DNA of 64,000 bases from Hyaloperonospora brassicae. Lineage: Eukaryota; Oomycota; Peronosporomycetes; Peronosporales; Peronosporaceae. Position 1 is the stretch's first letter; the number at the start of each line of letters is the position of its first letter. Positions 1-64,000 of this stretch are shown in pieces. Both the position numbers and the translations under genes were made by a program. Location of the stretch: contig CANTFL010001181.1 of assembly GCA_947650285.1 (NCBI GenBank), positions 124,001-188,000 of the forward strand. Direction: 5' to 3'. The notes under the pieces are model-generated. The model was not told the DNA's origin, made no database searches, and saw nothing but the letters and a program-made list of their open reading frames with translations.

Positions 1-1
1 G

Positions 2-829
2 TTGCATTGTTTATCGAGTGAGGCAGGCATTCCTTGCCTCACATGGGGAGACCCTTGTGCGAGTTGTGTTGACAACTCGCAGCGTGCACATAGGGATGTG
101 TACTCCCTAAATTCGCCCTTGGGAAGGGCGCACATCTCGGCTGAGATGCGTGACGCGATTGCAAACTTGCAATCCGTCTACAAGCGCCTAGGGCGCGTGT
201 TTACCGATGGGCCACAGGACTCATCGGATGGGTCTCGTCATACTGGCGGACAAGACCTTCAACATCCATCAACAGCTGAGAGCGGGGCTCCCAGCTGTTC
301 AAAGAGGGTGGATACCCCCGCCACTGGACGAGGTAGCTCGTCCTTGATCCTGAATCGTCACGGTGATTCAAGATACGCTCCACTAGAAAGCGTTGATCAC
401 CGTGAGCATCCACCAAAGGATGTGGTAGAGGAGGAAAGACCTCCTCCAGATGATTCTGTTCACCATCTCGACCCTTACAAGATGGATCGCGCAATCGATG
501 AATTGCGCGATGACTTGAAGCACGAGCGCGTTCGGCGCTACGCTTTGACCGATACCGTGCGGAAGAACCGCAAGGGTCACGAGGCTGATCGGGCGAGGGA
601 TCGCGCCGGTTATGCCACGGCGCAGCTTCAGGTCGAGCGGGATGTCCGCTCCCTATTCGGCGAGCTGGCGACAGCTCGCGGGGAGATATCTCGGTTGAAT
701 ACCGAGGTATCATATCTGCGCGACCTGACGGATCGTCTGGAGCGCGAACGCAAGAACTTGATGGATGTTCTTGAACGTGGGGGCTGTCTTCATCGGAAGA
801 AGAAGGCTCGTACTGACAGTACGACCTAA
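2..829 (+). CDS. Long antisense frame with coiled-coil character, opposite the Pol linker and chromodomain
   Basis: An uninterrupted 276-codon plus-strand frame enters from the left edge (first codon TTG, so the true start is unknown) and runs antisense to the chromodomain part of pol. Its C-terminal 120 residues look like a coiled coil: heptad-like hydrophobics in a Glu/Arg/Lys/Leu-rich setting, ending in KKKAR. It has no similarity I recognise. The simplest explanation is chance openness: antisense of a low-complexity Arg-rich linker, helped by the dense inverted repeats that make the two strands resemble one another. A genuine antisense gene of the element is possible but unproven. Confidence 0.2.
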   Translation: MHCLSSEAGIPCLTWGDPCASCVDNSQRAHRDVYSLNSPLGRAHISAEMRDAIANLQSVYKRLGRVFTDGPQDSSDGSRHTGGQDLQHPSTAESGAPSCSKRVDTPATGRGSSSLILNRHGDSRYAPLESVDHREHPPKDVVEEERPPPDDSVHHLDPYKMDRAIDELRDDLKHERVRRYALTDTVRKNRKGHEADRARDRAGYATAQLQVERDVRSLFGELATARGEISRLNTEVSYLRDLTDRLERERKNLMDVLERGGCLHRKKKARTDSTT

Positions 830-1433
830 GCCTCCCCACGTAAAACGTAGGATGCGTGCGCATCCTACGTGGCAATTCGAGTGTGTATGCATTGCCCTTG
901 CGATGCAACACTCGAAATGGCCCAATGTATTTCGGCAGTTGTTTGCTACTGCCGACACTAGTGACTGCATGTCTAGGTAAGTTTACCGTTGACAGTAGTA
1001 CTAGGTCGTTAACCTTAAATGAAAGAACATTTGCTCTTCCATTCTTGTCTGCGTTCCGTTTCTGACGGTCCACCGCATTTGCGATGGAGTCCTGAACGAA
1101 ACGGACTACCGCTTCTCGAGTCAGCAGGAAGTTCTCTGCTGACTCTTTGTTTTGTCTGGCAGTGCGCTTCGTGCGCACTGCTAAGAGATTGCTCTCTTCT
1201 TCATCGAGGTTGTCTTCTTCCTCGCTGACATAATCGTTGACGATGCTGAATACACCAGCATCGTCATCATCATCCGAATCAATAATAGCGTCTTCGCTAT
1301 TATTGAGATGATCTTCTTCATCGATGTCGACTTGATCGACATCGGCATCATACGTGACGACGTTTGCGTCGACACGTGATGAGCAAGAGCCAAAACGGTT
1401 TTTGCTCGAGCGAGTCCCTCCCCCCTTATCCAA
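201..1433 (-). CDS. Integrase C-terminal region and chromodomain of Pol
   Basis: The frame begins with an acidic stretch and the conserved segment around residues 105-205 (REAVVRFVQDSIANAVDRQK, then YIGPFRVL and MRTHPTFYVGRL), the GPF/Y module of gypsy integrases. A 130-residue Arg/Ser/Pro-rich linker follows. A chromodomain at about 349-400 (FLVERILNHRDD, YLVQWRGYPP, SWEPRS) then ends the polyprotein. Chromodomains in this position bind methylated histone H3 and steer integration to heterochromatin; that role is inferred from the family. The linker is overlapped on the other strand by a long open frame (2-829). Confidence 0.87.
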   Translation of the reverse strand: MDKGGGTRSSKNRFGSCSSRVDANVVTYDADVDQVDIDEEDHLNNSEDAIIDSDDDDDAGVFSIVNDYVSEEEDNLDEEESNLLAVRTKRTARQNKESAENFLLTREAVVRFVQDSIANAVDRQKRNADKNGRANVLSFKVNDLVLLSTVNLPRHAVTSVGSSKQLPKYIGPFRVLHRKGNAYTLELPRRMRTHPTFYVGRLRSYCQYEPSSSDEDSPHVQEHPSSSCVRAPDDPSGRADMIPRYSTEISPRELSPARRIGSGHPARPEAAPWHNRRDPSPDQPRDPCGSSARYRSKRSAERARASSHRAIHRLRDPSCKGRDGEQNHLEEVFPPLPHPLVDAHGDQRFLVERILNHRDDSGSRTSYLVQWRGYPPSLNSWEPRSQLLMDVEGLVRQYDETHPMSPVAHR

Positions 1434-2527
1434 GAGTTACACTCTATAAGGGTGGGCACTCGTGGATGGCGTAGGCCATTCACGTAAAACGGTGTGTGCT
1501 GTGTTGAAGCATGCACCGAATTATTGATGGCGAATTCCACCATGGGTAGGAATTCGCTCCAACTCGGAAACGAGTGGACATATCCTCGAAGAATATCTTC
1601 GAGGACACGGTTCGCACGTTCCGTCTGACCATCTGTTTCTGGATGGTCAGAAGTGGACATCTTCAATCGTGTTCCGAGAGTACGGAACACGGTTTGCCAA
1701 AATTCCGCCGTGAACCGAGGGTCACGGTCGGATACGAGTTCACGGGGTAACCCGTGGAGTCTAAAGACCGTGTCTAGAAAGACACGAGCACAACCTTGAG
1801 CCTTGATTGACTCAGGGACAGCAGCAAGATGGACCATCTTGCTGAATCGGTCTACAAACACAAGAATACCATTATTCTTGTGAGCGTCTTCGGGAAACCC
1901 GAAGACGAAGTCCATTGAAACGGACTGCCAGCACTCTGTCGGAACAGGCAGAGGCTGCAATGGCGCACGGGATGAAGGACTAGGCTTCACCCGTTGACAA
2001 ACTTCGCAAGCACGTATGTACTTGCGAACAAACTGATACTGGCGGGGCCAGTAAAAGTCACGACTTACCGTGAGGTAAGTCTTTCCTCTTCCACGATGGC
2101 CGCTTGTTGGGGCATCGTGACACTCGTACATGATGCGCAACCGCAAATCATGATGAGCGGGTACGACGACACGAGGCGTGTCGTCGGCAACAGCTGTATA
2201 GTACAGCAATCCGTTGCGTTTACTATACCGATCCGATGAGGATCGGTACAAAGCCGTTAAATCCCTCATGGATTTACTGGATGGATTCACCAGATGATCC
2301 ATCGAACGCAGAAGATCCTTATCTTCCGCGTATGCCTTTCGTACGTCGTCAAGTAAACTTGACGACGGGACACTGACTGACAGTGTCGCAACAGTGGGCT
2401 TATCCTCACTGTTGGATTGTGCGTCCGGCTCGAAATCGGGCCGGCGCGAAAGAGCATCCGCGACGACATTGAGTCGTCCCGGTTTATACTCCACGGAGAA
2501 ATATACTCCGCGAAGAAAGACAGCCAC
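1181..2527 (-). CDS. Integrase domain of Pol
   Basis: The frame opens with the end of the RNase H connection (VEYKPGRLNVVADALSRR). It then shows the integrase zinc domain (H-x-H plus CEVC) and the core with catalytic Asp in SVSMDFVFGFP, Asp in VSDRDPRFTAEFW and Glu in HPETDGQTERANRVLED. This gives the complete D,D-35-E triad that joins element cDNA to the host genome. The frame breaks again near 1430, after the HTPFYVNGLRHPR motif, and the post-core region continues in the adjacent frame; the last roughly 80 residues here are out of register. Confidence 0.87.
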   Translation of the reverse strand: MAVFLRGVYFSVEYKPGRLNVVADALSRRPDFEPDAQSNSEDKPTVATLSVSVPSSSLLDDVRKAYAEDKDLLRSMDHLVNPSSKSMRDLTALYRSSSDRYSKRNGLLYYTAVADDTPRVVVPAHHDLRLRIMYECHDAPTSGHRGRGKTYLTVSRDFYWPRQYQFVRKYIRACEVCQRVKPSPSSRAPLQPLPVPTECWQSVSMDFVFGFPEDAHKNNGILVFVDRFSKMVHLAAVPESIKAQGCARVFLDTVFRLHGLPRELVSDRDPRFTAEFWQTVFRTLGTRLKMSTSDHPETDGQTERANRVLEDILRGYVHSFPSWSEFLPMVEFAINNSVHASTQHTPFYVNGLRHPRVPTLIECNSWIRGEGLARAKTVLALAHHVSTQTSSRMMPMSIKSTSMKKIISIIAKTLLLIRMMMTMLVYSASSTIMSARKKTTSMKKRAIS

Positions 2528-4236
2528 CTCGCCATTCTTTGCGAGAGGTGTGGGCTGTTTACGGCCGTGCGTAATGACGCATGGTCCGTGTAGACAACAA
2601 ACGGTCTATCTCCCAAGAGATAGACGCGAAACTTAGCCAGTGCGTATTTCATGGCAAGGAGTTCCTTGTCATGCACTGGGTAATTACGCTCAGCTGCTTG
2701 CAGCTGACGCGACTGATAACAGATGACGCGCTCCGCGCGATCTGCATCGAACTGCATTAACGCACAGCCGATTGCAAAATCGCTGGCGTCACAGACCACA
2801 TGAAATGGTCTGTCCTGATCTGCAATCGCCAAGATCGGCGATTGCATCAAGCTCCGCTTGATACCTTCAAAGGAACGCTGGCACTCAGCGTTCCATGACC
2901 ACTTGACATTTTTCTTGAGCAAGCAAGAAAGATAAACAGTCATCTCGGCGTAGTTGCGCGAGTACTTGTGCAAGTACGCCGCAAGACCAAGGAACTTCCT
3001 TAGTCCCTTGACATCGACTGGCACTGGCCAGTCGGTGATCGCCTTGATCTTTTCGGGATCAGGGCGTACGCCGTGTTTACCCACGATGCACCCAAGAAGT
3101 GGTATTTCGCTAGCCGCGAATATACACTTCTTGAGGTTAGCGTACAACTTATGCTTGCGCATAAGTTGAAGAACCTGACGAACGTGAGTTCTGTGAACTT
3201 CAACGTCCGTCTTTCCGTCCATAGCCCGGCTATGGACGAACACATCGTCGAAGTAACTCGGTGCGAGGTCTCGCACCGGTCTCAACAGATTTGTGGCACG
3301 TCTGTTGAATGTTGCAGGGGCATTGCTCAGCCCCTGTGGCATAACTAGCCACTCCCACAGCATCCCGCTGGGGGTACTCACTGCCGTGAACGGGATGTCC
3401 CGTTCACGCATGAGGATCTGATAGAACCCATCCATCGGATCCATGGACGAAAAGATGGTACTCTTTGACATACCATCTATGATTACGTCCTTCCTCTGTA
3501 TCGGCGTCTGAGCCGGTACCGTTGCAGCATTCAACTTGTTGAATGCGTGCACTATCCGCCACCCTCCTGTGGCCTTTCGCACACAGAAGGTCGGAGAGCT
3601 GTGAGGGGATGTTGATTCCCTCACATGGCCCGCGGCTAAGCGATCGGCAAAGAACTTGTCGATCGCTATCACTTGTTCACGAGGCAGTGGCCACTGCTTC
3701 ATGACACAGTATTTCGAGCCCGGTTTGAGCTCGATCTCGTGTCGAGTGCCTTTGTCCTTAGGCAACTCGCAAGGTACGGATTCAGGGAACACATCCCTGA
3801 ATTTGATCAAATCCTTATACAAAGGATTTGCCTGAAGTGATTCCCAGGATTGGGACGCGTATCGCTCAATCCGAGTCTTCTCATCGAGGACAATTTCGTC
3901 CATCGATGAGCTGCTGAGAACCCGTTCGTTCTCAGCAAATACTGTTGCCGACCGAATGTCGGTCACATACTCGTCCTCTGTGACGAGTATGCAGATCTGC
4001 TTGACTTTGCCATTACGCAGATCACGCAAGAACCGTTTCGGTTCTAGCGTTCGCAACTGAGTTATTTTCGAAGTCAACTTCGGAGGCACAATCAGATCAA
4101 GCGTATAAGCGCCTACGCTTGATCCGTCATTAACCAAGACGTTCAACGTCTCGGTTTCTTCCTGGGAACTTGCTTCCACAGGTTGCTGAGGGCCTAATCC
4201 CTCAGCAAGAAGACTCTTGAGGAATTCCTTCCTCAA
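2287..4236 (-). CDS. Reverse transcriptase and RNase H domains of Pol
   Basis: RT motifs are in order: a first catalytic Asp in SSMDPMDGFYQI (near residue 265), the block LVMPQGLSNAPATF, then the active site YFDD at about 328-331 followed by the thumb. RNase H follows with HVVCDASDFAIGCAL, where the first Asp is catalytic, and FVVYTDHASL near residue 560. The frame is lost just after the RNase H segment ending FFAEY near 2500. The normal continuation is found in the next frame, so the last roughly 60 residues of this frame are not genuine Pol sequence. One missing base would explain this. Confidence 0.88.
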   Translation of the reverse strand: MRKEFLKSLLAEGLGPQQPVEASSQEETETLNVLVNDGSSVGAYTLDLIVPPKLTSKITQLRTLEPKRFLRDLRNGKVKQICILVTEDEYVTDIRSATVFAENERVLSSSSMDEIVLDEKTRIERYASQSWESLQANPLYKDLIKFRDVFPESVPCELPKDKGTRHEIELKPGSKYCVMKQWPLPREQVIAIDKFFADRLAAGHVRESTSPHSSPTFCVRKATGGWRIVHAFNKLNAATVPAQTPIQRKDVIIDGMSKSTIFSSMDPMDGFYQILMRERDIPFTAVSTPSGMLWEWLVMPQGLSNAPATFNRRATNLLRPVRDLAPSYFDDVFVHSRAMDGKTDVEVHRTHVRQVLQLMRKHKLYANLKKCIFAASEIPLLGCIVGKHGVRPDPEKIKAITDWPVPVDVKGLRKFLGLAAYLHKYSRNYAEMTVYLSCLLKKNVKWSWNAECQRSFEGIKRSLMQSPILAIADQDRPFHVVCDASDFAIGCALMQFDADRAERVICYQSRQLQAAERNYPVHDKELLAMKYALAKFRVYLLGDRPFVVYTDHASLRTAVNSPHLSQRMARWLSFFAEYISPWSINRDDSMSSRMLFRAGPISSRTHNPTVRISPLLRHCQSVSRRQVYLTTYERHTRKIRIFCVRWIIW

Positions 4237-5044
4237 GTACGTGGGGACTTATTCCCTCGACGTCTTCCGACTGTGGCTGTGCAACCACAGTCAGGAACCG
4301 ATCCTTTACGGTCGACTCTCCAGTCGACCTAGGATTTTCATGTTGCCCCTTGGGGGCAACAGACTTCTTTCTTCTAAGATGCTGCCCGCTAGGCATGCAT
4401 CCATGTCCCGGTCCACTCGACTTATTCGAGTGGTGGACCTTCGGCGCAGCCTGTACTTCTGTACAGCCGCCGGGAGCTTGCTCCACAGTGTAGTGATCAA
4501 CTACACTGTGATCTTGTGCAGTCGTGCTAACGACCGTACCGCAAGTGAGGCCATCGCACTCACTCGCAGAACATCCACACGCTTGTGGACGCTCCAAGAT
4601 GTTCATCAGATGGCCATCTGATGAACAAGCAGCAGGCATCTTCACGGATCGATGCTGCCAGCTCACTCTTGGCTCGTACTTTCTGAGCCAAGGTAATCCC
4701 AGGATGACATCAAATTTGTCATCCAGATCTAGTACGATGAAGTCATCATCGTACTGTTCGCCCTCTAACGTGTAGTGGATTCCTACTACACGTTTCTCAA
4801 CGGTTATCGATGCGCCTGTTGCAAGGCGCACCGTCATCCTTGTGAGGGGAATGTCGCGCTCAACGAACTTGAGCCTACGACCCTCTAGTGACTGGCGACG
4901 AACAAAATTGTTCGACGCCCCACAGTCTACTAGGGCACGAAGTGACAAATCATTTGTCGCTTCCAACTTCAAGGTGATGAGCAAAACGTCATCACCAGGT
5001 GCAGAGACACACAATGATTGTGTATCTGGAGCAACTTTCGTCAA
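4202..5044 (-). CDS. Retropepsin-like aspartic protease domain of Pol
   Basis: This 280-aa frame carries the catalytic motif LVDCGASNNFV near residue 37 and the downstream hydrophobic ILGLPWL near residue 114, the two signatures of a gypsy-type aspartic protease. DCGAS replaces the more common DTGA/DSGA; this Cys variant is frequent in oomycete and plant gypsy elements. The C-terminal half is a low-complexity linker to reverse transcriptase. The frame is -1 relative to gag and does not join the RT frame; the two overlap by about 35 bases near 4202-4236. The domain cleaves the Gag-Pol precursor. Confidence 0.85.
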   Translation of the reverse strand: MTKVAPDTQSLCVSAPGDDVLLITLKLEATNDLSLRALVDCGASNNFVRRQSLEGRRLKFVERDIPLTRMTVRLATGASITVEKRVVGIHYTLEGEQYDDDFIVLDLDDKFDVILGLPWLRKYEPRVSWQHRSVKMPAACSSDGHLMNILERPQACGCSASECDGLTCGTVVSTTAQDHSVVDHYTVEQAPGGCTEVQAAPKVHHSNKSSGPGHGCMPSGQHLRRKKSVAPKGQHENPRSTGESTVKDRFLTVVAQPQSEDVEGISPHVLEEGIPQESSC

Positions 5045-5094
5045 GAGATTTGCAAATTCTCTTGAGGTTGCTGGATCAGTAGGGCGCTCCGCCC

Positions 5095-6249
5095 CTACTG
5101 ACCCCGACCATTTTTTGATGGTCCGTCTCGCTGTTGCGGCTTCGCAACAGCGCTGGACCCACGCCCATTGCCCTTTCTGGCAAAAGGTCGTCCATTTCGC
5201 TCAATATTGTTTGGTACTGGGCGTGGAGCACTACACTCGTATGCGTAGTGCCCTAACTTCTGACAGCGATTGCACCTCTGCAATCGCTTGTTGTTTGTAG
5301 AGCGAGGTCTCTCGCTCTCAACATAGCAGAGGTCCATTGGTTCTGGACCTCCGATCTCTTGTCGTCTCGGTGGACGGTAAGAGTTTGAGCTAGCATGAGC
5401 CTGTCTCATGCTAAAGTCTTCCTGTTCCGCGGCTGATATCGCTTCTTCAAGCGTATTCAGCTCAAGGCGGAACAGGTGGCTCCTGACAGGCCTTTCTGCG
5501 AGCCCTTGCATGAACACCGTAATCAACATGTGTTCATGTACTGGGTTGGCAGTTATACTACTCGCAAGGAGTCGTATATGTTGTGCGTAAGCGTGTACAT
5601 CACGCTTACCCTGCTTGAGTTTCAGGAGCTCTGAGCGAGCCCTGAACTCAGCACGTGGCGGCTCAAACGTTTGTCTGAGCCGGGCCTTGAAGTCATCTAG
5701 CGACCTAAACACATTGGGGTCGCTACTCTCGAGTCCCGGGGACCAAGTTTTGGCACGCCCTGCCAAGTGGGTCTGAGCAAATGTGAGTTTCATTTGCTCA
5801 TCTTCGACGCGACGAGCCCTTAAGGCTCTGTCAAGTTCGACAAGCCATAGTAACAGGGAGTCTTCCGGGACTCCTCTGTACTTGGAGATATCAACCTTCA
5901 TGACCTCGGGACGACGCGCATGTGCCGTCCCGCCCACAGCAGCATGGAATTGCTGATGTCTCAACAGATCTGTCTGTTGAGCACCGAGTTCTCTCAACTG
6001 CTCGGCCTGTTGAGAGCCTTGCTGGTGAAGCAAGGCTACTTTCTCCCTCTCGAGAGCAAGTTCATTCTGAATGAACTTGGCGATAGCGGCATGTTGTTGG
6101 TCTCTGTCTAGAGACTCCAACATGGTGCTGACGACGAGTTCGCCTACGGTAGAACTCATTCGTTCTACCGCACCCCATTCGATGTCACTCAAATGGGTAA
6201 ACCCTTCACGCGTGGCGTGAAAGGTGTCTTCTTCATCCAACATGAACAT
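5095..6249 (-). CDS. gag: Gag (capsid-nucleocapsid) of the Ty3/gypsy element
   Basis: The product is 384 aa and starts 45 bp inside the LTR. The N-terminal part is coiled-coil-like and Gln-rich (about residues 60-100). The middle matches the retrotransposon gag capsid fold, with the usual W-x-x-x-L-x-x-x-F pattern around residues 150-230. Near residue 330 there is one CCHC zinc knuckle, CNRCQKLGHYAYEC, followed by a basic tail for nucleic-acid binding. Gag packages the element RNA in cytoplasmic particles. The frame ends at 5095, and the protease continues in the -1 frame, as expected for frameshift expression. Confidence 0.88.
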   Translation of the reverse strand: MFMLDEEDTFHATREGFTHLSDIEWGAVERMSSTVGELVVSTMLESLDRDQQHAAIAKFIQNELALEREKVALLHQQGSQQAEQLRELGAQQTDLLRHQQFHAAVGGTAHARRPEVMKVDISKYRGVPEDSLLLWLVELDRALRARRVEDEQMKLTFAQTHLAGRAKTWSPGLESSDPNVFRSLDDFKARLRQTFEPPRAEFRARSELLKLKQGKRDVHAYAQHIRLLASSITANPVHEHMLITVFMQGLAERPVRSHLFRLELNTLEEAISAAEQEDFSMRQAHASSNSYRPPRRQEIGGPEPMDLCYVESERPRSTNNKRLQRCNRCQKLGHYAYECSAPRPVPNNIERNGRPFARKGNGRGSSAVAKPQQRDGPSKNGRGQ

Positions 6250-6273
6250 GTTGGATGATGTGGTCCTTGGAAG

Positions 6274-6291
6274 GACTACAAAGTGCTACCA
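6274..6291 (-). promoter_or_regulatory. Primer binding site for minus-strand DNA synthesis
   Basis: On the minus strand, two bases after the LTR ends, the sequence reads TGGTAGCACTTTGTAGTC. TGG pairs with the tRNA 3' CCA, and the next bases predict a tRNA 3' end of ...ACAAAGTGCTACCA. This is not the initiator-tRNA site (TGGTATCAGAGC) used by many plant elements. Which tRNA is used cannot be told without the genome's tRNA set. Confidence 0.7.
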
Positions 6292-6293
6292 GG

Positions 6294-6684
6294 TGTAACG
6301 GGGCACACCCTTGCGTAACTTAACGCAAGGGTTTTGAGTGCCCCGACAGACGTACACGTGGCAAGCGAGGAAGCGTAGGTAGGGTAAAAGTAGAACTGTT
6401 ATATTAATAAATTAAGTCTTTAAACTACTGTCTCTTCGTTTGACTTAATTCAATTATACTAATATAACTGCATGTATGGTGACGTCTCGTCACCACTCAT
6501 TGCGCGCGTCTTGCGGCGATTGGTGGGTTGATATCATCACGATATCAACCAATGAACAGACCCTTTGGTCGACCCTTCAATATCACCACTTTGGTGATAT
6601 TGTTTTAAAGAATATCCATCTTTATATTCTTTATTGTCACTTTCCTTAAAGTGACAATTTCATGTAACGTGCTGCCCCGTTACA
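6294..6684 (-). repeat. 5' LTR of the Ty3/gypsy element
   Basis: The 391-bp segment begins TGTAACGGGG and ends CCCCGTTACA, the TG...CA form with perfect 10-bp terminal inverted repeats. It sits directly upstream, on the minus strand, of the primer site and gag. It contains several perfect hairpins, for example arms 6634-6643 and 6648-6657. A diverged relative lies at 58785-59224. Sequence to the right (from 6685) loses the hairpin character at once, which supports the boundary. Confidence 0.9.
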
Positions 6685-62500: not shown

Positions 62501-63268
62501 TTGTACGTTATTTGGATCAATCGTAGTTGCGTTGCTCAGAAAATGTACCACACGAGAATGTCCGTTAGACCTCATCATTAGATCACATCTTAACCCTTCA
62601 TTTAATAGGTGTGCAGGCCGATTTGCTGTTGACAATCAACCAATTTACATTTACACTTATATAGAAAGAAATTTCTTCTTTAGATCTTTTTTCATCCAGC
62701 ACCTCTGACTCAGCCGACTGTCTCGAAAGCACCGCTGCTTCTTGAACCAGTAAAGTTTCTCTAGATTGATTGTTGCTATCGTGTCTAATTTTCTCTGCAA
62801 TTATTACTCGTCACGTGTGCGTTTGGTAGAAACGATGACGTTCTAACTGATCATACCTTGTACGATGATAATATCTTCAGTAGCGTCATCCGTGAGAGCT
62901 TTACAGAATCTATCACTGTCATCTATCTAGTTAGTAAAAAAAGAAGATCATCATTTACATCGGTCGACCTGACACCAACACATACGCGCGATATGTGACG
63001 TCCTTTTAGCCAGTAGGTGCAAGCTGGAGCACAGTCACTCGTCTCTCCATATAAGAACCTCTATAGAGGGTTAAATTTCTGTTTAAGGAATTTCGTGTCC
63101 CGCACCAAGCTGCGCCACTTGGTTTTCGTATGATGACTCTATGCAATAGACTTAAGAAATAGGGTAATAAAACAACGCGCACCAGCCACCAGTTTCCCTC
63201 TATATTGTAATTGCCACAGCCTCGCATTGCCTGCCACTTTGCACATGTTCTTCCGTTCCACCTTAAAC
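59534..63268. other. Decayed AT-rich repeat region
   Basis: 3.7 kb with no gene I can support. Frames such as 61333-61611 and 61729-62199 are open over 90-150 codons but have no recognised domain and sit in DNA with the look of old transposon debris. One perfect long inverted repeat is listed separately. Confidence 0.5.
60908..60976. repeat. Perfect 28-bp inverted repeat with 13-nt loop
   Basis: Arm 60908-60935 (starting GTCACGCTTTTG) is the exact reverse complement of arm 60949-60976. The loop is 60936-60948, ATCAACTCCTTTT. No coding frame is attached. It could be the core of a foldback transposon remnant or encode a hairpin RNA. Confidence 0.9.
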
Positions 63269-64000
63269 ATGCTGTCAAAGCGAACGATTCTGACGATGGA
63301 GCAAAAGAGTCGTGTGCAGGTGCACATCACACGCACAAGGGGCATAGAAATATTCCAAATAAAAGACTGGGTCAGGGATCTCGGCCTTCGGATCTCCACA
63401 ACGGCAGCAGAACGGATTCGTCAGGCACCAGCCCACTCGTTCCTTACCACGGACAGGATTCGAAATCGAAAGGTGCTGTTTCCAGCGTTTATGGCTGCGT
63501 TCATTGCATTCTATCGTCTCAATGACGGCAACGTGATTCTCCCAGACGATCTACGACTAGAAGAAGGTCGCTCAACCCGAGCCGCTCAAGGGATAAGCGA
63601 GAATGACCTGCGGCTTTCGAATGGGTGGCTGCACAAATTTAAGACTAGACACGGCATCCATCAGCATGTGCTTCACGGCAAGGCAGACTCAGTTGATTGC
63701 GCTCAACTCGCCGTGAATCTAATGGAGCTTAAAGAGCTTATTGGACAAAATTCACCACGGTATGTATTCAAGTTTGACGAATCAGCTCTCTTCAATCGCC
63801 TACCTCCAAACAAGGATACTGGAAACGGCCAAGCGCAACGTGAAGAAGTCAGAGAAGGATCGTATCACAGTCGCAATGTGCTGCAACATGACCGGGACCG
63901 AGAAGATGGATCTCGTTGTCATAGGCAAGTCGAAGCAACCACGAGCATTTCGCAAATCCAACACCAGGCATATGAAGTTTTTGTACTTCAACAGCCAGAC
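63269..64000 (+). pseudogene. pogo/Tigger-type (CENP-B) DDE transposase, frameshifted and cut by the window edge
   Basis: The frame opens at the ATG at 63269. The N-terminal part has a helix-turn-helix-like region (DRIRNRKVLFPAFMAAFIAF). A CENPB-like DNA-binding segment follows (LRLSNGWLHKFKTRHGI), then the start of the DDE domain with the first catalytic Asp in FKFDESALFNRLPPN (about Asp170). Near 63815 the family sequence switches to another frame, where EKDRITVAMCCNMTG and LVVIGKSKQPR follow. An indel has therefore broken the gene, and the rest lies beyond position 64000. Transposases of this family move Tc1/mariner-type DNA elements by cut and paste. No terminal inverted repeat was found upstream. 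Confidence 0.8.

Follow-up and report, generated by a model that had tools for sequence, protein, structure and literature searches.

Short perfect hairpins throughout the coding and noncoding sequence of a Ty3/gypsy chromovirus of Hyaloperonospora brassicae

Results

In a retrotransposon of Hyaloperonospora brassicae, silent changes have turned the LTRs, gag, pol and an antisense open reading frame into short, perfect hairpins, with the proteins kept, and the pattern suggests copying or selection at work on both strands instead of ordinary RNA folding. The analyzed DNA, referred to here as the window, comprises 64,000 nt (assembly GCA_947650285.1, contig CANTFL010001181.1, positions 124,001 to 188,000, forward strand). 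Taking as a hairpin any perfect inverted repeat with arms of at least 8 bp and a loop of at most 20 nt, we counted 85 in positions 1 to 6684, among them 35 with arms of at least 10 bp, and 16 in the remaining 57.3 kb (6685 to 64,000). Altogether, 31% of the sequence lies inside such hairpins. All ten arm pairs quoted in an earlier note on this DNA were found to be exact. The loop-free palindrome among them, placed at 4601-4626, is 2 bp longer than described (Table 1). The note's spacing of one repeat every 25 to 35 nt was too dense: there are 146 non-overlapping repeats with arms of at least 6 bp over the 6,684 bases, a mean spacing of about 46 nt.

The element is a young, high-copy Ty3/gypsy chromovirus, in agreement with the earlier identification as a retrotransposon: gag, PR-RT-RH-IN, a chromodomain and LTRs with a target duplication are all present. 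It had been placed within 1-6684; its length is 7,986 bp, and its left part extends 1.3 kb outside the window, to window coordinate -1299. The two LTRs show one mismatch in a 392-base BLAST alignment, the LTR ends form a 12-bp inverted repeat, and the 5-bp target duplication AGTTG is found on both flanks of the element. A TGG near the 5' LTR and a G-rich purine tract before the 3' LTR were read directly from the edges. The gag profile matches (Retrotrans_gag and Ty3 capsid, 59.1 and 36.1 bits) exceed the cut-offs, and those to zinc knuckles fall below them. The pol domains of copy L050 follow the order RVP_2, RVT_1, RT_RNaseH, Integrase_H2C2, rve, and the chromodomain (PF00385) was detected at 52 bits in the window ORF 204-1433. 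The antisense ORF, which overlaps the C-terminus of pol at 204-826, is kept across the family and has no Pfam match at E <= 0.01.

Table 1. Features of the element in window coordinates. Hairpins have arms of at least 8 bp; the last column gives the mean (maximum) in codon shuffles.
Feature	Position	Strand	Basis or remark	Hairpins	Shuffles
5' LTR, 390 bp, TG...CA	6295..6684	-	BLAST comparison with the other LTR, printed edges
Other LTR	-1299..-910 (outside the window)		BLAST alignment with the first LTR
gag ORF	5095..6249	-	Retrotrans_gag, Ty3_capsid	14	0.57 (3)
N-terminal pol ORF, protease part	4202..5044	-	RVP_2 called on copy L050	12	0.65 (3)
RT and RNase H ORF	2287..4236	-	domains called on copy L050	25	0.72 (4)
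Integrase ORF	1181..2527	-	domains called on copy L050	17	0.38 (3)
C-terminal pol ORF	204..1433	-	SH3_Tf2-1 and chromodomain (about 234-386)	11	0.76 (4)
Antisense ORF, 540 aa, stop to stop	-793..826 (in the window 1..826)	+
Longest hairpin	4600..4627		14-bp arms, loop-free, 28-bp palindrome
Hairpin	845..870		12-bp arms
Hairpin	1279..1306		12-bp arms
Hairpin in RT	3385..3408		11-bp arms
Four successive hairpins in the noncoding LTR	6526..6658		10-11-bp arms
Hairpin with the clearest one-arm rewriting	2196..2228		copies L021, L045 and L046 differ in the sense 5' arm

As the earlier note had supposed, the hairpins are in excess of chance and lie inside conserved domains by choice of codon: shuffles leaving the protein and its codon usage unchanged (200 per ORF) gave means of 0.4 to 0.8 hairpins per ORF, against 11 to 25 observed. 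The neighboring genes lack the pattern, since six of their ORFs hold 0 or 1 hairpin, without excess over shuffle means of 0.5 to 1.6. A general excess of repeats was considered and rejected, because neither direct repeats (2 observed, 2.4 expected) nor mirror repeats (5 observed, 2.3 expected) show a surplus of the size seen for hairpins.

The pattern stops, as had been claimed, at the edge of the right LTR. Hairpins with arms of at least 7 bp occur at 15.4 per kb in the left LTR and at 21.1 per kb in the part of the antisense ORF outside the dual-coding overlap, and once in the 116 bases between the two; the noncoding LTR is not denser in hairpins than the coding parts, nor are its arms longer. 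In the dual-coding overlap, 6.4 hairpins per kb were counted against 13.7 (arm at least 8; difference not significant, p = 0.19). The arms end abruptly, pairing being continued past one mismatch in 4 of 100 hairpins against a chance expectation of 6.25, and their lengths drop off sharply above 11 bp. Loops of 3-5 nt are most frequent, no excess is seen above about 16 nt, and the sense-strand loops are rich in A and poor in C in every region (A 0.337, against 0.251 outside). Spans of about 23-26 nt were found in 58 of 100 hairpins (42 expected with codon phase kept). A fixed span was rejected; there is a genuine trade-off between arm and loop, arms being shorter where loops are longer (rho -0.40). 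It is seen mainly in pol and gag, and in the LTR and antisense ORF together (n = 26) it does not reach significance. The arms carry no surplus of lineage-specific amino-acid change over the rest of the proteins (3 L050-specific changes at 252 arm sites, 12 at 496 sites outside).

The arms show no preference for G-U pairing. Allowing G-U pairs on the sense strand adds 120 repeats with arms of at least 7 bp and allowing their mirror, A-C, adds 125; one-sided changes among copies comprise 165 G-U and 163 A-C, and a further count gave 15 and 24. Folding energy likewise shows no strand preference against synonymous shuffles, with z -33.2 for the sense and z -30.6 for the antisense strand and a gap between strands of -31.9 (-30.0 +/- 15.5 in shuffles). 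When random ORFs were selected in simulation to the same energy, sense-strand selection gave 7 perfect stems of at least 8 bp in 3.6 kb and both-strand selection gave 2 in 2.4 kb, compared with 59 in 4.2 kb of the element (loop bins 0-20 summed). One-strand selection also left G-U above A-C (64 vs 43 for arms of at least 8 bp, 15 vs 5 for arms of at least 10 bp).

The check on other copies proposed in the earlier note showed hairpins in 60 of 60 family loci fetched, and the pattern was absent from the sampled LINE-like loci (8 of 8), other gypsy types and host genes. Two sister-family fragments carry an intermediate load of repeats with arms of at least 6 bp and loops of at most 12 nt (16 against 4.1 expected in L070, 10 against 3.4 in L072), those of L070 at sites other than in the studied element. 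Among the loci sampled, hairpin conversion is graded in strength across related families. Most hairpins are older than the radiation of the family. Comparison with the fragments L070, L072 and L074, at about 60% identity, revealed no clear asymmetry of wear between arms.

At 3385-3408, 16 of 36 aligned rows have a loop-free 24-bp palindrome with 12-bp arms. The most informative variation is at 2196-2228, where L021 reads TACACGACT and 28 of 36 rows read TATAGTACA; the latter pairs with the 3' arm, which L021 shares, and pairing is also missing in L045 and L046. Through up to four close changes, the sense 5' arm of most copies has become fully complementary to the 3' arm. At the altered residue, L045 and L046 have a T, as does the nearest relative, Peronospora effusa; among more distant relatives this residue is variable. 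A single four-base event is not secure: one of the four changes is missing from L047, and L048 carries just one of them, so that the two adjacent changes from ACG/ACA to AGT are the only ones that invariably co-occur.

Stems longer than those of L050 exceed the random mean in all 10 copies compared (6 against 1.2 in L021, for example), although this comparison rests on one reference copy and may reflect losses in L050 itself. New hairpins in diverged copies (arm at least 8; 0-3, random 0.7-2.5) are not clearly above random. Losses are clearly below the random mean in 9 of 10 diverged copies and about equal to it in L048 (24 vs 25.3), in a comparison that ignores clustering of substitutions and uses a single reference copy. 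Covariation is nearly absent: 2 pairs have two Watson-Crick states, 66-91 pair states, depending on labeling, are mismatched, and 5 of 74 shared stem alleles restore pairing. Shared silent diversity at third positions was 34/447 in stems defined in L050 and 152/938 elsewhere; an unbiased labeling gave 52/495 and 134/890, a weak effect (p = 0.017). Strong purifying selection acting on the stems at present was therefore rejected, the odds ratio of 0.43 being inflated by defining the stems in one copy.

Discussion

The explanation that we favor, tentatively, is that template switching, filtered by protein constraint and probably helped by selection, turned imperfect repeats into palindromes. The hairpins would most likely have been built at the cDNA stage, when nascent minus-strand DNA made by reverse transcriptase turns back at an imperfect inverted repeat and serves as its own template, so that one arm is rewritten to complement the other exactly; protein-damaging events would be purged and silent ones would pile up, and most hairpins may have arisen in this way. 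Template switching had been among the causes listed in the earlier note, and part of the evidence fits it: the arms are Watson-Crick only, with G-U no better than A-C, and one clustered change was found, though with partial states in two copies. It is further favored by folding energies equally extreme on the two strands, the abrupt ends of the arms, the short loops, the lack of excess direct repeats, the absence of extra amino-acid change in arms, the few perfect stems that energy selection yields on random ORFs, the lengthened stems and the repeats of L070 and L072. Against it stands the density, as a crude neutral fold-back model under strict protein constraint, which excludes every amino-acid replacement and may underestimate copying, reached 0.4-6.2 hairpins per kb against about 14 in the element; selection for hairpins was therefore probably added to copying. 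The noncoding LTR is no richer in hairpins despite its freedom from coding limits, new hairpins are not clearly above random, the site 2196-2228 shows partial states, and the predicted multi-base compensatory changes are nearly absent. Ongoing maintenance by copying would make covarying Watson-Crick pairs common, and only the two were seen. The composition of the sense loops is a hint that selection acted on a single strand.

It is also quite possible, if doubtful, that the hairpins were selected on both strands from variation supplied by silent point mutations, the element gaining whenever its RNA and the opposite strand (minus-strand cDNA, or transcripts from the antisense ORF) both self-fold, for example through slower sense-antisense annealing and hence escape from small-RNA silencing. 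Such selection accounts for equal G-U and A-C counts without a copying mechanism and for a density above the neutral model. The lower shared silent diversity in stems, the reduced losses of hairpins, the similar density in coding and noncoding parts and the A-rich sense loops agree with it; the conserved antisense ORF makes two-strand transcription plausible, and the partial states at 2196-2228 suit stepwise change. On the other hand, both-strand energy selection on random ORFs produced few long perfect stems in simulation, the signal of conservation becomes smaller when ascertainment is corrected for, and 55% of 25-mers do not fold to -4 kcal/mol.

In genome-scale ordered RNA structure, base order promotes folding beyond composition, as a mean-energy effect. 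Selection favoring a compact, folded genomic RNA, serving stability, packaging or hiding from RNase and RNAi, is an unlikely origin here: folding of the sense strand far exceeds sequence-order controls and its loops are A-rich, but the antisense strand is equally extreme, and neither a G-U preference, in sequence or polymorphism, nor strand-specific stability was found. Moreover, simulated one-strand selection keeps G-U above A-C with few perfect stems, and the arm-loop trade-off runs opposite to what saturation of stability predicts. For the same reasons, the folded RNA resistant to silencing proposed in the earlier note is not supported in that form; the A-rich sense loops were the sole point in its favor.

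We consider it similarly improbable that the element is a self-complementary genome acting as counter-defense, its evasion of RNA silencing being written in synonymous codons. Much of either strand would self-fold in units of about 23-26 nt, and the small RNAs and the sense and antisense transcripts of the element would conceal the guide sequence they carry. This reading is suggested by the closeness of the hairpin span to the 25/26-nt small RNAs that predominate for Phytophthora retrotransposons (PMC3804510). Finally, chance, codon bias, composition or assembly artifact is refuted, as nothing was found in its favor and it is contradicted by synonymous and dinucleotide shuffles, by the presence of the pattern in every family locus across many contigs, by its lack in LINE-like loci and host ORFs, and by the direct and mirror repeats.

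The element resembles other oomycete Ty3/gypsy chromoviruses in gag, PR-RT-RH-IN order, chromodomain and LTR structure. The closest named protein is from Peronospora effusa, with 88% identity across the searched part of pol; proteins P0003 and P0004, encoded on ENA contigs, reach 80-82%, and Globisporangium and Phytophthora proteins among the 120 matches listed stand at about 60-69%. The conserved antisense ORF over the pol C-terminus sets the element apart, and so may its whole-element hairpin conversion, the relatives having been compared as proteins. Searches of viral_contigs and genome_contigs gave no DNA of relatives from other genomes.

Template switching creates and mends hairpins in RNA genes (Monttinen and Loytynoja 2022, PMC8794818) and likewise at yeast quasi-palindromes, where mutations linked to RNA-DNA hybrids lengthen the identity shared by the arms of imperfect inverted repeats (Kim et al. 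2013, PMC3820800). The former system similarly shows perfect stems made by copying one arm from the other, with clustered changes, but it concerns RNA genes and DNA replication, whereas here about a hundred stems lie inside retroelement protein genes, with little maintenance by covariation; the yeast sites are chromosomal reporters, not a whole element. FORS-D, a measure of the stem-loop potential of retroviral genomes applied to HIV-1 (PMC1274309), also reveals base order favoring folding beyond composition, as a mean-energy effect, in contrast to the discrete, Watson-Crick, strand-symmetric hairpins described here. Among the matches listed by full-text searches of open-licence papers, no description of such an element was found.

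The family would be a natural, high-copy example of a coding sequence much of which has been pushed into perfect hairpins with its proteins unchanged. If the hairpins were built by reverse transcriptase, template switching can remodel a whole element, beyond single RNA genes; if they were selected, a cost or defense acting on single-stranded retroelement DNA or RNA dictates about a third of the sequence. Either way, graded families within one genome make the origin of perfect stems directly testable.

Identity of the element and neighbouring features

The element is encoded on the minus strand and extends past the window edge; its second LTR starts 1,300 bases ahead of the window, within the locus (L069) that holds this DNA. 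The two LTRs differ at one site, begin with TG and end with CA, and are flanked on both sides by AGTTG, which indicates that the 7,986-bp element inserted recently. At the LTR ends there is also a terminal inverted repeat of 12 bp, TGTAACGGGGCA...TGCCCCGTTACA. Pfam domains identify the element as a Ty3/gypsy chromovirus: the window copy yields gag/Ty3 capsid and chromodomain matches, and L050, the copy used as reference, supplies protease, RT, RNase H and integrase. The pol of the window copy is broken across several frames and is a single long frame in other copies, including L050. Among named proteins the closest comes from Peronospora effusa (88%). A nearby host gene shows 71-82% identity to Phytophthora-named proteins and 76-78% to those of Peronospora, so the host probably belongs to the Peronosporaceae.

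An antisense ORF of 540 aa, about 620 nt of which are shared with pol, had no match in Pfam. For its C-terminal 274 aa, 141 matches were scored among 2,847 candidates, each at least 93% identical and the majority stop-free. Separately, eight outside homologues (36-86% identity) are listed, from ENA contigs, Hyaloperonospora arabidopsidis and Peronospora matthiolae; the 36% homologue has the source label "RxLR effector candidate".

Coordinates of the features in the window (negative positions precede the window start)
Feature	Position	Strand	Remark
Element, part within the window	1-6684	minus	
LTR	6295-6684		
Antisense ORF	-793..826	plus	1-826 within the window
Opposite-strand frame overlap	204-826		
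Hairpin with paired and unpaired versions	2196-2228		
ORF leaving the window	63227-64000	plus	presumably resembles a DNA-transposon transposase with HTH domain

Hairpin excess and protein silence

Hairpins were counted as maximal perfect arms of at least 8 with a loop of at most 20, the counts for gag, LTR and antisense ORF referring to the window copy only. All ten hairpins quoted in the earlier note have exact arm pairs, and the fixed rule detected 85 hairpins in the element part of the window vs 16 in the other 57.3 kb, a density about 45 times higher. The pattern is not reproduced by protein-preserving shuffles, a comparison called for in the earlier note: the five element ORFs contain 11-25 hairpins each vs means of 0.38-0.76 and maxima of 3-4 in 200 synonymous shuffles; 100 dinucleotide shuffles gave means of 0.25-0.53 and maxima of 2-4. 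Its reported absence from neighbouring genes was likewise seen, with 0-1 hairpins in each of six adjacent ORFs. With loops of at most 12, the excess over dinucleotide shuffles was 22-46 per length class for arms 4 through 10, and 12.9, 3, 0 and 1 at arms of 11, 12, 13 and 14, respectively. In the pol ORF of L050, loop length has its maximum at 3-5 nt, with no excess of loops beyond about 16 nt or of direct repeats (2 vs 2.4). The loops of the element are C-poor on the sense strand in all regions, the antisense ORF stretch included.

The arms are silent to the element's proteins: residues unique to L050 occur in 1/159 conserved columns in arms vs 1/351 outside, and changes specific to L050 in a comparison with the P. 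effusa protein in 3/252 arm sites and 12/496 outside. The register in which third codon positions pair only with each other was found in 13/74 hairpins vs 30% in synonymous shuffles, and hairpin spans prefer (53/100) the phase predicted if stems end where neither side can change silently. In the opposite-strand frame overlap the density was 6.4 vs 13.7 per kb, a drop that is not significant.

Family copies and relatives

As the earlier note required of other family copies, the pattern was present in 60/60 fetched loci, which come from two overlapping searches that each include the window copy. Densities per kb were 11.5-14.9 in L009-L038 and 6.3-14.2 in L039-L068, with the minimum in L046, the most diverged copy. 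Eight loci labelled LINE-like from their ORFs alone had 0-2 hairpins in 3.7 kb, and three fragments of another gypsy type had zero. Among three short fragments of sister families from this one genome, whose kinship was read from identity rather than from a tree, L070 (63-65% amino-acid identity) has 6 hairpins in 1.3 kb, at sites differing from those of the element, and a fold z of about -5. L074 has 2 in 467 bases, its fold-energy excess not being significant (z -1.2 and -1.1). L072 (60-62%) has zero hairpins at arms of at least 8, and 10 vs 3.4 repeats at arms of at least 6 and loops of at most 12 (z from -3.9 to -6.5). At a protein site common to L070 and L074, KDMVL, one fragment has a hairpin with 7-bp arms and the other a hairpin with 9-bp arms around a loop of 5 nt. 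Among the sampled loci, the property is thus confined to one gypsy group, with graded strength and without site-by-site inheritance.

Origin of the hairpins

Almost all hairpins are older than the family, whose copies are too alike to reveal most origins. At 2196-2228, the sense 5' arm is unpaired in the copies L021, L045 and L046. L021 differs from 28/36 rows at four positions within seven bases of this arm, and the arm of those 28 rows exactly complements the 3' arm, which L021 also has. The residue encoded there is T in the three unpaired copies and in P. effusa, and S in the paired version; the paired state is therefore probably derived, although this residue is variable among more distant relatives. 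One of the four changes is missing from L047, and L048 shows a single one of them, so the rewriting may not have been a single step; two adjacent changes were never observed apart.

Such a rewriting of the sense 5' arm would result if the nascent minus-strand cDNA folded back and copied the 3' arm. Template switching of this kind has been reported for RNA genes (PMC8794818) and for yeast quasi-palindromes (PMC3820800). In favour of ongoing repair by copying, the number of stems longer than those of L050 was above the random mean in 10/10 copies, with the caveat that all were compared with this single reference; against it, two Watson-Crick states were found in only two pairs. Selection is favoured by a crude model of neutral fold-back under strict protein constraint, which produced just 0.4-6.2 hairpins per kb, by a density no higher in the noncoding LTR, by a somewhat lower shared silent diversity in stems (52/495 vs 134/890, p=0.017), and by sense-strand loops rich in A in gag, pol, antisense ORF and LTR. 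On balance, we tentatively consider template copying the likelier builder of the hairpins and two-strand selection a near rival; both may have acted.

Selection for folding of the genomic RNA, proposed in the earlier note, should leave a strand bias, since that strand tolerates G-U and not A-C. Relaxing the pairing rule gained 120 pairs with G-U vs 125 with A-C; one-sided changes among copies numbered 165 and 163, and shared alleles 15 vs 24 (25 vs 34 with the other labelling). Fold energy was indeed extreme against shuffles, but this held for both strands, and the sense-antisense gap matched that of shuffles; no such excess was found in a LINE-like locus or three host ORFs, one of which has its own sense-antisense gap. 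When random ORFs were put under simulated RNA-energy selection up to the element's level, the final G-U count exceeded A-C and 7 perfect stems of at least 8 arose in 3.6 kb; selection on both strands gave 2 in 2.4 kb, and the real element has 59 perfect stems in 4.2 kb. Equal G-U and A-C, both-strand fold energy and the few perfect stems under simulated selection argue against an RNA-only structure. The product of the process seems to be contiguous perfect complementarity more than energy.

Hairpin span and small RNAs

Arm and loop length are inversely related (rho -0.40, n=100), and owing to this trade-off the full lengths of the hairpins concentrate at 23-26 nt (58 hairpins vs 42.2 expected, p=0.0002, permutation with codon phase kept), strongly in pol and gag and not significantly in LTR plus antisense ORF. 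Phytophthora small RNAs have been described with peaks at 21 and 25 nt, retrotransposons bearing chiefly the longer class (PMC3804510). Among 25-mers of the L050 ORF, 45% on the sense and 44% on the antisense strand reach -4 kcal/mol or better, vs 28% and 26% in shuffled sequences. The span and 25-mer data are compatible with a role of the hairpins against small-RNA silencing.
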